Assembly (NCBI RefSeq): GCF_010500215.1
Contig: NZ_JAAGOY010000004.1
Location: forward strand, 558,001 to 622,000
Direction: 5' to 3'
DNA: 64,000 nucleotides
DNA from: Aliiroseovarius sp. PrR006
Lineage (GTDB): Bacteria > Pseudomonadota > Alphaproteobacteria > Rhodobacterales > Rhodobacteraceae
How positions within the stretch are numbered: the first letter of the stretch is position 1; the number at the start of each line of letters is the position of its first letter. The position numbers were made by a program, and so were the translations under genes. Shown here piece by piece: positions 23,819 through 32,166 of the stretch. The notes below the pieces were generated by a model that ran no database searches, was not told the origin of the DNA, and was given only the letters and a program-made list of their open reading frames with translations.

Positions 23819-24676
23819 ATGCGCCATACACTTCCGCTTGCCCCTCAGTTCTATGTAACTGCTCCGCAGGAATGCCCCTATTTGGATGGGCGCATGGAGC
23901 GCAAGCTATTCACAGCCCTTCAGGGTGAGCATGCGGAAACACTGAACGATACCCTGTCCAAGCAGGGATTCCGCCGGTCGCAAAACGTCCTCTATCGCCC
24001 GTCCTGCGCTGAATGCTCGGCCTGTTTGTCTGCCCGCATCAGGGTGGCTGATTTCCAACCCAGCAAAAGCCAGCGTCGCACGGCCAAGCGCAATGCGATG
24101 CTTGAACGTCGCGCCCGCGCCCCGTGGGCCAGCGAAGATCAGTACGAGCTGTTCCGTCGCTATCTGGACACACGTCATGCCGAGGGTGGTATGGCTGATA
24201 TGGATGTGTTCGAATTTGCCGCGATGATCGAAGAAACCCCGATCAAAAGCCGCGTGATCGAATATGCCGAACGTGGCCCGGATCAGCTTCCCGGCGATGA
24301 CGCCACAGGTCCCTTGCGCGCAGTCTGCCTGACCGATGTGCTCGAAGACGGGTTGTCGATGGTCTATTCCTTCTACGATCCCGACTGGCATCGCAAATCC
24401 CTTGGTACCTATATGATCCTCGATCATATCGACATCGCACGCGAGGCGGGCCTGCCTTACGTCTATCTGGGCTATTGGGTGCCGGGCAGTCCGAAGATGG
24501 ACTATAAGGCCACGTTTTCGTCCATCGAGATCTATCGCGACAACCACTGGACGCCGCTGGTCACGGACGAGGATTACTCGGCCGAACTGCACCCCCTGTC
24601 CACAGATCCAATCGCGGAGCAAGTGGCCAGCATCACGCTGCCGGACACGGCCAGCAAGGTGCATCGCGAGGCCTGA
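23819..24676 (+). CDS. bpt: aspartate/glutamate leucyltransferase (N-end rule)
   Basis: Transfers Leu from Leu-tRNA to N-terminal Asp or Glu of proteins, marking them for ClpS/ClpAP degradation. The 285 residues are slightly long for Bpt. Seen are the N-terminal Cys motif [15 protein letters not shown] near residue 19, [16 protein letters not shown] near residue 58, and the diagnostic [18 protein letters not shown] near residue 216. It has the bacterial single-module form; arginyltransferase is an older name for the family. Confidence 0.92.
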
Positions 24677-24848
24677 TCAACTCGGAAAGCGTAGAGATTT
24701 GCTGCGACTGCACAAATCTTTGCCGCGAAATTCGGCAAATACCGAGTTTGCACGGGCCATATTTCCATAAATTGCGCCCAGACCTCCAATTTCAGACCGA
24801 AAATTACAAAATTTTCGCTTCCGCGACATTTTCTACGCGCTTTCGCTG

Positions 24849-24877
24849 TTGACGCCCCCGCTCACCGCTCATAATGT
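24849..24877 (+). promoter_or_regulatory. putative promoter of the ilvBH operon
   Basis: TTGACG (24849-24854) is followed by CATAAT (24870-24875; spacer 15) or TAATGT (spacer 17). Transcription would start near 24884 and run through the leader peptide and attenuator. The gap between bpt and this point (24677-24848) holds a 7-bp inverted repeat TTTGCCG/CGGCAAA but no gene. Confidence 0.5.
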
Positions 24878-24939
24878 CCCGCGCATATGTTGAAGAAGCC
24901 TTCAAGGATCCCCTTGGGCAAGAACATGGAAAAACTGCA

Positions 24940-24987
24940 ATGGGCAGCGTCCTAGTACTTGTTGGATATTGGCGCATGGGCCGGTAA
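24940..24987 (+). CDS. ilv leader peptide (attenuation)
   Basis: A 15-codon reading frame, M-G-S-V-L-V-L-V-G-Y-W-R-M-G-R, with five consecutive Val/Leu codons at 24949-24963. It ends 25 bases before the attenuator stem and 81 bases before ilvB. Ribosome stalling on these codons when Val-tRNA or Leu-tRNA is scarce is the classical way to prevent terminator formation. GGAAAAA upstream (24928-24934) is a modest ribosome site. An overlapping frame starting at 24927 lacks such codons. Confidence 0.8.
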   Translation: MGSVLVLVGYWRMGR

Positions 24988-25038
24988 CGGAACCATAATG
25001 GAACCCCATGCGCCCCCGAGATGATCGGGGGCTTTTTT
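24971..25038 (+). promoter_or_regulatory. ilvBH attenuator: alternative hairpins
   Basis: Terminator: CCCCCGA (25013-25019) / TCGGGGG (25025-25031) with six T at 25033-25038. Competing stem: GGCGCATGGG (24971-24980) pairs perfectly with CCCATGCGCC (25005-25014), which shares two bases with the terminator's left arm. The first segment lies inside the leader-peptide frame, so a ribosome running to the stop at 24985 would mask it and allow termination, while one stalled at the Val/Leu codons would leave it free. Confidence 0.8.
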
Positions 25039-25068
25039 GTGAGAAGCGCACGTGGAACGGAGAAGAAG

Positions 25069-26823
25069 ATGACACGTCAGATGACCGGAGCGAAAATGGT
25101 AGTTCAAGCCCTGAAGGATCAGGGTGTGGACACAGTCTTTGGCTATCCCGGGGGCGCTGTCCTACCGATTTATGACGAAATTTTTCAGCAGAACGACATT
25201 CGTCACATCCTTGTCCGTCACGAGCAAGGCGCGGTTCACGCTGCCGAAGGATATGCCCGTGCAACCGGCAAGCCTGGCGTAGTTCTGGTAACCTCGGGCC
25301 CTGGCGCGACGAACGCCGTAACCGGCCTGACCGACGCGCTTTTGGACTCGATCCCGCTGGTTGTTCTGACCGGTCAGGTTCCGACTTTCATGATCGGCAC
25401 CGATGGTTTTCAGGAAGCGGACACCGTAGGCATCACCCGCCCCTGCACCAAGCATAACTGGCTGGTGAAAGAGACCGACAAGCTGTCGGAGACAATCCAT
25501 CAGGCGTTCCACGTGGCCACCTCGGGCCGTCCGGGCCCGACGCTGATCGATATTCCCAAGGACGTTCAGTTCGCCACCGGCAGCTATACGCCGCCCGCCA
25601 AGACCGAAACCGGCCACTATCAGCCGCAGATACGCGGCGACATCGATGCGATCACCGAACTGGCCGAGCTGATGGAAACCGCGGAACGCCCGATCTTCTA
25701 TACGGGTGGCGGCGTGATCAACTCGGGCCCCGCAGCCAGCCAGCTGCTGCGCGAACTGGTGGACGCGACAGGCTTCCCGATCACCTCGACCCTGATGGGT
25801 CTGGGCGCCTACCCGGCCTCGGGCGAGCAATGGTTGGGCATGCTGGGCATGCACGGTCTGTACGAGGCCAACATGGCGATGCATGACTGTGACCTGATGA
25901 TCTGTGTTGGCGCACGTTTCGACGACCGGATCACTGGCCGCCTTGACGCGTTCAGCCCGAGCTCGAAAAAAGCGCATATCGACATTGATCCCAGCTCGAT
26001 CAACAAGGTGGTGCATGTAGACCTTCCGATCGTTGGTGATGTTGGCCACGTGCTGGAAGACCTGCTGAAGGTCTGGAAAGCGCGCGGACGCAAGACCAAC
26101 AAAAACGGTCTGGGCAAATGGTCCGAGCAAATCGCCGAATGGAAAGAGCGTCGCTGCCTGTCCTATCAGAGAACAGATAACGTCATTCAGCCGCAACACG
26201 CGCTGGAACGCCTCGAGGCGCTGACCAAAGACAAAGATCGCTATGTGGCCACCGAAGTGGGTCAGCACCAGATGTGGGCTGCCCAATTCCTGGGCTTCGA
26301 GGATCCGAACCGCTGGCTGACCTCGGGTGGTCTGGGCACGATGGGCTATGGCCTGCCGGCTTCGCTGGGCGCGCAGATCGCGCATCCCGACGCGTGTGTG
26401 ATCAACGTGGCGGGCGATGCCTCGTGGCTGATGAACATGCAGGAAATGGGCACCGCGGTTCAGTTCCGCGCGCCGATCAAGCAGTTCATCCTGAACAACG
26501 AACGTCTGGGCATGGTGCGCCAGTGGCAAGAGCTGCTGCACGGCGAACGCTACAGCCACAGCTGGTCGGAAAGCCTGCCTGATTTCGTCAAGCTGGCCGA
26601 GGCGTTTGGCTGCCAAGGCCGTCAGGTGTCTGACCCGGCCGAGCTGGACGACGCCATTCAGGAAATGCTGGACTATGACGGCCCGTTCATCCTGGACGTT
26701 CTGGTCGAAAAACACGCCAATTGCTTCCCGATGATCCCATCGGGCGCGCCGCATAATGACATGCTGATGGGCGAAGCCGAGACGCAGGGCGTTATCGGTG
26801 CCGCTGGCGCAACACTGGTTTAA
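25069..26823 (+). CDS. ilvB: acetolactate synthase large subunit
   Basis: Thiamine diphosphate enzyme condensing two pyruvates, or pyruvate and 2-oxobutyrate, as the first common step to Val, Leu and Ile. The start at 25069 follows GGAGAAG and gives 584 residues; the frame upstream runs through the attenuator and is not coding. Motifs: GYPGGAVLP near residue 23, [14 protein letters not shown] with the catalytic Glu near residue 50, and the TPP/Mg segment [11 protein letters not shown] near residue 445. Followed after 13 bases by the regulatory subunit. Confidence 0.96.
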
Positions 26824-26836
26824 GGAGGGCTTTTAA

Positions 26837-27397
26837 ATGTCTGCACTAAAAATCAAAAAAGGTTCCTCCCGCAAGTCGGCTTATGACCTACGTGACCCGA
26901 ACTCGGACATCGTCGAAAGCCACACTCTGGCCTGCGTGGTGGACAACGAAGCCGGTGTTCTGGCGCGCGTCATCGGTCTGTTTGCTGGCCGTGGATACAA
27001 CATCGAAAGCCTGACCGTGGCCGAGGTTGATCACGAAGGGCACCTGTCACGTATCACCATCGTCACCACCGGCACACCTGCCGTGATCGAACAGATCAAG
27101 GCGCAGCTGGGCCGCATCGTTCCCGTACATGAAGTGCATGACCTGACCGTCGAAGGCCCGGCAGTCGAGCGTGAACTGGCGCTTCTGAAAGTCGAAGGTG
27201 CCGGTGACAAACGCGTCGAAGCGCTGCGTCTGGCCGACATCTTCCGTGCCAACGTTGTCGACAGCACGCTGGACAGCTTTGTGTTCGAGATCACCGGCAC
27301 GACCGAGAAGATCGACGCCTTTGCCGAGCTGATGCGCCCTCTTGGCCTCAGCGAAGTGGCCCGCACCGGTGTGGCCGCCCTGCCCCGCGGCGTATAA
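26837..27397 (+). CDS. ilvH: acetolactate synthase small (regulatory) subunit
   Basis: Binds valine and confers feedback inhibition on IlvB. The 186 residues begin with an extension (SSRKSAYDLRDPNSDIVESH), then the ACT domain HTLACVVDNEAGVLARVIGLF...GYNIESLTVAEVD at about residues 30-65, then the C-terminal regulatory domain. A strong ribosome site AAGGAGGG overlaps the ilvB stop, which ensures balanced subunits. Confidence 0.95.
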   Translation: MSALKIKKGSSRKSAYDLRDPNSDIVESHTLACVVDNEAGVLARVIGLFAGRGYNIESLTVAEVDHEGHLSRITIVTTGTPAVIEQIKAQLGRIVPVHEVHDLTVEGPAVERELALLKVEGAGDKRVEALRLADIFRANVVDSTLDSFVFEITGTTEKIDAFAELMRPLGLSEVARTGVAALPRGV

Positions 27398-32089: not shown

Positions 32090-32166
32090 TGGTCGGGACG
32101 GCAAGATTCGAACTTGCGACCCCCTGTACCCAAAACAGGTGCGCTACCAGACTGCGCTACGCCCCG
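32090..32166 (-). tRNA. tRNA-Pro (anticodon TGG)
   Basis: Minus-strand cloverleaf of 77 bases with encoded CCA. Acceptor CGGGGCG/CGTCCCG, D stem GCGC/GCGC, anticodon stem CCTGT/ACAGG around loop TTTGGGT (anticodon TGG), and T arm GCAAG-TTCGAAT-CTTGC are all paired. Reads CCA (and other CCN) proline codons. Confidence 0.97.

Follow-up and report, generated by a model that had tools for sequence, protein, structure and literature searches.

A branched-chain leader peptide and a near-invariant RNA stem upstream of ilvBN in Rhodobacterales

The ilvBN genes of Aliiroseovarius sp. PrR006 are very probably preceded by a ribosome-mediated transcription attenuator that senses charged tRNA-Val and tRNA-Leu and, in most relatives, also tRNA-Ile. 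The element was found in a window of 64,000 nucleotides, which is the whole stretch of DNA that was analysed, and all of its features lie on the plus strand. Reading of the sequence and comparison with relatives identified a leader frame with biased codons, a stop codon set inside a stem termed P1, an intrinsic terminator and a promoter-like site, together with their conservation. With such an element, the cell would probably make branched-chain amino acids only when short of them. Attenuators of this kind have been described before for alphaproteobacterial ilvB; the unusual part here is the near-frozen stem. A switch between two mutually exclusive hairpins, as usually pictured, fails to account for P1, because P1 is near frozen across alphaproteobacterial orders and barely touches, or never touches, the terminator. 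This raises a testable question, namely whether P1 works through base pairing or through its sequence. The leader family also suggests a function for the Rfam "sRNA" Atu_C8 and leads to the prediction that some Bcr/CflA-type transporters are under a V-rich leader peptide, a module that a conjugative plasmid and a betaproteobacterium also carry.

Leader peptide and control codons upstream of ilvBN

The stretch 24849-25068 separates an arginyltransferase gene (23819-24676; NF002343 in the profile search) from ilvB-ilvN. ilvB (25069-26823) encodes the acetolactate synthase large subunit of 584 aa (NF006581, 1116 bits, cut-off 974), and ilvN (26837-27397) encodes the small subunit of 186 aa (NF008864, 218 bits, cut-off 119). 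At the start of the stretch there is a putative promoter, composed of a -35-like hexamer TTGACG (24849-24854) and, 15 nt past it, a -10-like hexamer CATAAT (24870-24875). A standard promoter scan, which takes spacers of 16-18 nt, did not report this pair. TTGAC is found upstream of the core described below in 66/66 relatives that have the core, and the spacer is again 15 nt in 53 of the 54 relatives with a -10 hexamer recognised by our own hexamer list. Nothing observed argues for a transcription start downstream of 24987, which the initial annotation had named as a refutation.

The initial annotation described a 15-codon leader with five branched-chain codons in succession, and direct reading confirms it. 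The frame runs from the ATG at 24940 to the TAA at 24985-24987 (24940-24987), encodes the peptide MGSVLVLVGYWRMGR and has homologous frames in relatives; its control codons GTC CTA GTA CTT GTT (Val-Leu-Val-Leu-Val) occupy 24949-24963. A second short frame with its ATG at 24927 (MEKLQWAAS, 24927-24956) is out of frame and overlaps the start of the leader.

No other short frame (8-40 codons) on either strand of the 64 kb has five successive V/L/I codons followed by a terminator ending within 110 nt. When the terminator condition was dropped, 2 short frames per strand had such a run, so that a chance codon run beside the ordinary terminator of the upstream gene has some precedent in the window, in frames that lack a terminator. 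It is nevertheless hardly credible: frame and terminator together were obtained in 0/1000 dinucleotide shuffles of 24677-25068 (the V/L/I run alone in 6/1000), and the core is conserved in 66/80 loci. A chance run or a bare terminator was therefore ruled out.

The codons of the leaders suggest a translated frame that senses amino acids. Val and Leu are present in all of the 66 parsed leaders and Ile in 59, and the longest V/L/I run is at least five codons in 55 of them. From the start of the peptide to its conserved end, V/L/I make up 51% of residues, compared with 22% in IlvB. A Shine-Dalgarno-like site precedes the frame in 65/66 leaders, although the script favoured starts having one. Rare codons are strongly preferred: GTA accounts for 94 of 174 leader Val codons and CTA for 40 of 94 leader Leu codons, whereas their shares in the ilvB genes of these loci are 4.6% and 1.4%, respectively. 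According to Elf and Ehrenberg (PMC1183508), the sensitivity of an attenuator is set by codon choice, and a CUA to CUG change in the Salmonella leu leader lowered it. The stop codon is less fixed than its surroundings. In 81 parsed cores it is TAA in 68, TGA in 12 and TAG in 1, while the neighbouring letters hardly change (the 81 are the 66 leaders plus 15 of 30 BLAST loci, the other 15, on the minus strand, being left out; some genomes are in both sets).

Thus, as is expected of a ribosome-mediated transcription attenuator, a short, apparently translated frame encodes the product amino acids, and an intrinsic terminator lies between this frame and the structural gene. The initial annotation spoke of translational attenuation of branched-chain synthesis. 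The branched-chain leader, its conservation, the rare codons and the drifting stop codon bear out the idea, and ribosome-mediated transcription attenuation is the better term for it.

Similar systems have been described. An alphaproteobacterial ilvB leader peptide was reported by Vitreschak et al. 2004 (cited by Corbino et al. 2005, PMC1273637), and attenuation of Caulobacter ilvBN, whose leader has Ile and Val codons in tandem, by Tarleton et al. 1994 (cited by PMC4117421); both, known here through the citing papers, likewise have branched-chain codons and a terminator before ilvB. The ilvB-II (Corynebacterium) and ilvB-OMG motifs, as described in PMC10272879, also have a uORF of branched-chain codons before ilvB and are ascribed to transcription attenuation, but they belong to other phyla and have other structures. 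In the same order, the Rhodobacterales cysS attenuator uORFC-8-2 has a leader peptide before a terminator, but, as presented in PMC8632094, with Cys codons, another gene and another structure. The main text of a Ruegeria pomeroyi sRNA paper contains nothing on ilvB; the terms ilv, attenuat, leader, acetolactate and terminator are absent from it.

Conservation of the leader, stem P1 and the terminator

Conservation was analysed at 80 loci fetched by IlvB alone, which are the best 80 of 587 confirmed stretches and thus close relatives only. A pattern search found the leader-P1-terminator core at 66 of these 80 loci; conservation of the Val/Leu run was one of the checks proposed in the initial annotation, and all 66 leaders have V and L. 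The 14 loci without the core are 11 Paracoccus loci, L045, L094 and L096. At L045 a contig end cuts the locus, and the 3' half of the element is visible by eye. In all 11 Paracoccus loci of the set (L037, L041, L049, L055, L068, L076, L082, L087, L093, L106, L109), a script found no such leader or terminator in the 400 nt upstream of ilvB, which suggests an apparent loss of the leader in this genus. TTGAC is kept near ilvB in 11/11 of the Paracoccus loci. The two Amylibacter MAGs (L094, L096) have V/I/L-rich leaders, MIITVHIVVLAGPRAARKR and MINTVHIVVLVAPRTARKR, and a terminator just upstream of ilvB, in divergent sequence from which the usual P1 letters are absent.

A covariance model built from 73 leaders, the window's included (R1), matched 180/196 Rhodobacterales genomes at E <= 1e-4, covering 83/87 genera. 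Because bare terminators elsewhere reached E of about 1e-6, we also give the stricter count at E <= 1e-8, which is 174/196 genomes. The gene downstream was ilvB in all 22 of the best matches that were read. BLAST with the window's leader found it in 32/61 genomes of a wider spread. Seven R1 matches (L123, L124, L126, L144, L145, L179, L180) were dropped, as they proved on reading to be terminators without a leader.

P1 was noted in the initial annotation as a perfect 10-bp stem, and its 5' arm GGCGCATGGG (24971-24980), within the leader frame, is indeed the exact reverse complement of its 3' arm CCCATGCGCC (25005-25014). Two hairpins are nested inside P1 in the predicted fold: P1a (CCG-GUAA-CGG, 24981-24990), which carries the stop codon UAA in its loop, and P1b (24993-25001), a weak hairpin of 3 bp that differs among species. 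The terminator, reported earlier as a hairpin at 25013-25038, holds as such, but its stem starts at 25012 by the terminator scan: GCCCCCGA-GATGA-TCGGGGGC, with 8 pairs and a loop of 5, spans 25012-25032 and is followed by a T tract (T6, 25033-25038). P1 and the terminator share three bases in the window (25012-25014) rather than the two claimed. Of 73 aligned leaders, 72 have a P1 that extends 2 nt into the terminator and 40 one that extends 3 nt, and the two basal pairs of the terminator are possible in 73/73.

The stems differ in how they vary. In the terminator stem, 4 pairs have double changes, compared with 1.3 on average after shuffling (0/500 shuffles as high), and P1a shows double changes at 2 of its 3 pairs. 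P1 is paired in 94.8% of the alignment cells of the 73 leaders; three of its pairs are invariant, four show changes on a single side, and the remaining three deviate through unpaired cells alone, the outermost pair being unpaired in 32/73 leaders. Mean pairwise identity is 0.983 in the core of the 5' arm and 0.997 in that of the 3' arm, compared with 0.85-0.89 in the terminator arms, 0.62 in the V/L/I run and 0.43 in P1b. Covariation had been proposed as a check for both stems; compensatory change is seen in the terminator, and covariation cannot be demonstrated for P1 in ilvB leaders, because P1 hardly varies there. When MFS leaders, described below, were added (alignment A3, 25 rows), P1 had double changes at 5 pairs vs a shuffled mean of 3.0, with 41/500 shuffles as high, and its covariation score in A3 was reached by 28/500 shuffles, which is no clear support for covariation. 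As judged from these alignments, P1 is more invariant than pairing requires.

The conserved, junction-like fold ahead of a terminator would also suit a metabolite-binding riboswitch, with P1, P1a and P1b as the aptamer and the frame as an incidental feature. We consider this highly improbable: the stop codon drifts in place among all three kinds, the leader codons are biased, and P1b, which would be part of any aptamer core, is just 43% identical.

In the minimum-energy fold of the whole leader, its 5' end (24892-24900) pairs with 25030-25038, that is, with the 3' arm of the terminator and the T tract. The A-rich ribosome-site region of relatives could pair likewise.

Stem P1 and termination in Rhodobacterales and Rhizobiales-type leaders

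The attenuator would work as follows. When branched-chain amino acids are ample, the ribosome would pass the V/L codons and reach the stop codon in the P1a loop inside P1. There it would cover and unfold the 5' arm of P1, the terminator would form, and transcription would end near 25038. When Val or Leu is short, the ribosome would stall on the rare GTA and CTA codons upstream of P1, P1 would fold into a junction that abuts the terminator, and RNA polymerase would read through into ilvB. We infer the stalling, the direction of regulation and the weakening of termination by P1, which would take 2-3 basal pairs of the terminator and hinder it sterically or kinetically. A difficulty for this scheme is that the footprint of the ribosome may extend to the outer P1 pairs even when stalling occurs on the last Val.

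Folding agrees with this scheme in part. The predicted fold of the window's leader contains both P1 and the terminator. The partition function was calculated for 81 Rhodobacterales leaders and 5 Rhizobiales-type leaders with varied ribosome positions. With the RNA free from a point before the P1 5' arm, or from the second base of that arm, the basal pair of the terminator had a mean probability of 0.49-0.78 and the fifth pair 0.82-1.00 in the Rhodobacterales leaders; with at least three bases of the arm covered, these values were 0.98 and 0.99 or more. With exactly three bases covered, the P1 core still formed (0.93) beside the full terminator. The predicted effect of P1 on the terminator by pairing is thus in the right direction but partial. 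A thermodynamic two-state switch was weak in the 81 Rhodobacterales leaders and absent in the 5 Rhizobiales-type leaders. Accordingly, of the two-state attenuator proposed in the initial annotation, the leader and the terminator before ilvBN stand, whereas a clean two-state switch is weakly supported, since folding leaves most of the terminator in place; the term claims more than can be read from the sequence. The initial annotation was right to doubt how the stem disrupts termination. Steric or kinetic hindrance by a helix that abuts the terminator would be the simplest addition to the model. In ilvB-II, the antiterminator as described in PMC10272879 takes part of the terminator stem.

The Rhizobiales-type leaders were reached through Rfam. 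A scan of the whole window gave no above-threshold match at the leader, its sole match being a tRNA at 32093-32166. Near misses at the leader were Atu_C8 (RF02502), with 14.6 bits against a cut-off of 50, and Hrs1, with 12.6 bits on the other strand; two relatives scored 30.6 bits (L052) and 25.5 bits (L171) with RF02502, and L112 and L113 are further hits to it below the threshold. The weak matches of the window and L052 led to true RF02502 members. The member carried by genome G143 (98.8 bits) served as query for a BLAST search of plasmid records. It matched 16 of them, and each of the 4 that were opened was above the RF02502 cut-off (105-121 bits). Two of these 4 are ilvB leaders, and the other 2 precede an MFS gene. 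In Sinorhizobium meliloti Ak57 (L213), the RF02502 element lies before annotated ilvB and ilvN, and in Shinella (L215) directly before ilvB as read from the DNA, the leader being at about 2469-2600 in both; the leader peptides are MKNFAVILVVGRRMGRMV and MKNLTAIILVVGRRMGRVV, respectively.

The P1 letters of the Rhizobiales-type leaders, GCGCAUGGG/CCCAUGCGC, are those of the Rhodobacterales P1, and the nested hairpin again has the stop codon in or at its loop, although its stem differs from that of P1a. Together with the V-rich leader ending RRMGR.. and the ilvB downstream (L213, L215), these features suggest kinship, and by sequence Atu_C8 belongs to the ilvB leader family. The window's own leader, which does not reach the gathering threshold of RF02502 (50 bits), is related to Atu_C8 and is not filed as a member. 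In the literature searched, outside which most subscription papers lie, Atu_C8 was not found described as an ilvB leader; RF02502 is mentioned in PMC5913331, as far as the relevant part of that paper goes, merely as an item of a test list.

The two forms differ in the placement of P1, which overlaps the terminator in the window's leader and lies 3-7 nt from it, with no overlap, in the predicted folds of 5/5 Rhizobiales-type leaders. In 4 of these 5, the terminator has P = 1.00 at every tested ribosome position, and in the fifth 0.55-1.00. If the folds are right, base-pair competition cannot explain the family as a whole, because P1 and the terminator are separated in these leaders and the terminator is predicted to form.

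A search for the exact P1 pattern gave 7 of 289 genomes of the class: four matches are Rhodobacteraceae ilvB leaders, one is the G143 leader, and two (L217, L222) lie within long open frames and were dropped. The reversed control pattern was found in none of the genomes listed from the same search of 289. This rarity, with 5 of the 7 matches being these leaders, would fit a different role for P1, in which P1 and its nested hairpins form a sequence-specific antitermination RNA that acts on RNA polymerase directly or via a factor and is unfolded, and so silenced, by translation of the leader. The identity of the P1 arms (98-99.7%, against 85-89% in the terminator arms) and the recurrence of the same letters in Rhizobiales-type leaders, in which P1 stands clear of the terminator, also favour such a role. 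However, the P1 letters change in MFS leaders, at times to mismatches, and common descent or codon constraint could equally slow the change of P1. We know of no factor or RNA polymerase contact for P1. On balance we regard this role as rather improbable; it refines the attenuator model and does not replace its leader-peptide part. The same holds for its extension, a doubtful one, in which P1 would be a portable antitermination RNA and the Atu_C8 "sRNA" the terminated product of the same switch.

The terminated leader might instead be mainly a trans-acting small RNA, whose invariant stem would pair with targets or bind a protein. RF02502 is typed "Gene; sRNA" in Rfam, and the S. meliloti trp attenuator offers a parallel: it is an alphaproteobacterial leader-peptide attenuator whose terminated RNA persists (PMC7298713), and rnTrpL and its peptide peTrpL act in trans according to PMC7298713 and PMC10117765. 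It differs in its Trp codons, and the trans roles are those described for rnTrpL (PMC7298713). We think a mainly trans-acting role unlikely, even more so than antitermination by P1, since the V/L/I run, the rare-codon bias and the position before ilvB suit attenuation in cis.

Leaders before Bcr/CflA-type MFS genes

Besides ilvB, related leaders precede Bcr/CflA-type MFS genes at 22 loci in several alphaproteobacterial families (L118-L122, L125, L148-L150, L111, L171-L178, L211, L212, L214, L216). TIGR00710 (Bcr/CflA) was the best model for 22/22 of the proteins, 15 of them above the cut-off of 200.9 bits and 7 at 175-200. Leaders of this type before MFS transporters were not found in the literature searched, most subscription papers lying outside it. 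When R1 was run at E <= 1e-4 on the 289 genomes of the class, 9 matches fell outside Rhodobacteraceae, 6 before an MFS gene and 3 at bare terminators, and in 36 genomes of the order of G143 all 3 matches were before an MFS gene; the Atu_C8 locus of G143 itself also precedes one. Two R1 matches were present in 11 of the 196 Rhodobacterales genomes. In ten of these, which were searched again, the second match was before an MFS gene in 8 and at a bare terminator in 2; in the eleventh (G061) it was a bare terminator (L145). G542, for example, has one leader at ilvB and another at an MFS gene.

Records of a plasmid collection added 4 MFS leader loci, from Rhizobium gallicum, Phyllobacterium, Roseobacter denitrificans and Burkholderia cenocepacia. 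The window's leader matched 6 records, of which 2 were opened. On a Roseobacter denitrificans plasmid typed conjugative (L214), the leader lies at 2423-2533 and the gene is annotated "multidrug effflux MFS transporter". A Burkholderia cenocepacia replicon (L211) has a copy of the leader (55 bits) at 2459-2567 with an MFS gene, which suggests transfer between classes.

The V-rich run is looser in MFS leaders, with a mean V/L/I fraction of 0.38 and a longest run of 1 to 6. Control by a V-rich leader would suggest a transporter linked to branched-chain amino acids; alternatively, the leader may respond to a ribosome-stalling compound. The leader is not general at such genes, as R1 matched at 3 of the 30 best-matching MFS loci among 121 Rhodobacterales genomes. 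In a tree built from 46 MFS proteins, the label for presence of a leader changed 6 times (bootstrap 4-6), against 15.4 when shuffled (0/500 as low); L125, L205 and L208, missed by the motif, and three duplicate loci were left out of this tree, and the row of L184 is mostly unaligned, probably in a wrong frame. The spaced form of the leader is found in the 4 Rhizobiales records, at ilvB and at MFS genes, and in G143, and the abutting form likewise at ilvB and at MFS genes. The pairing of leader and transporter therefore arose or was kept in both forms, because each of them occurs at both genes.
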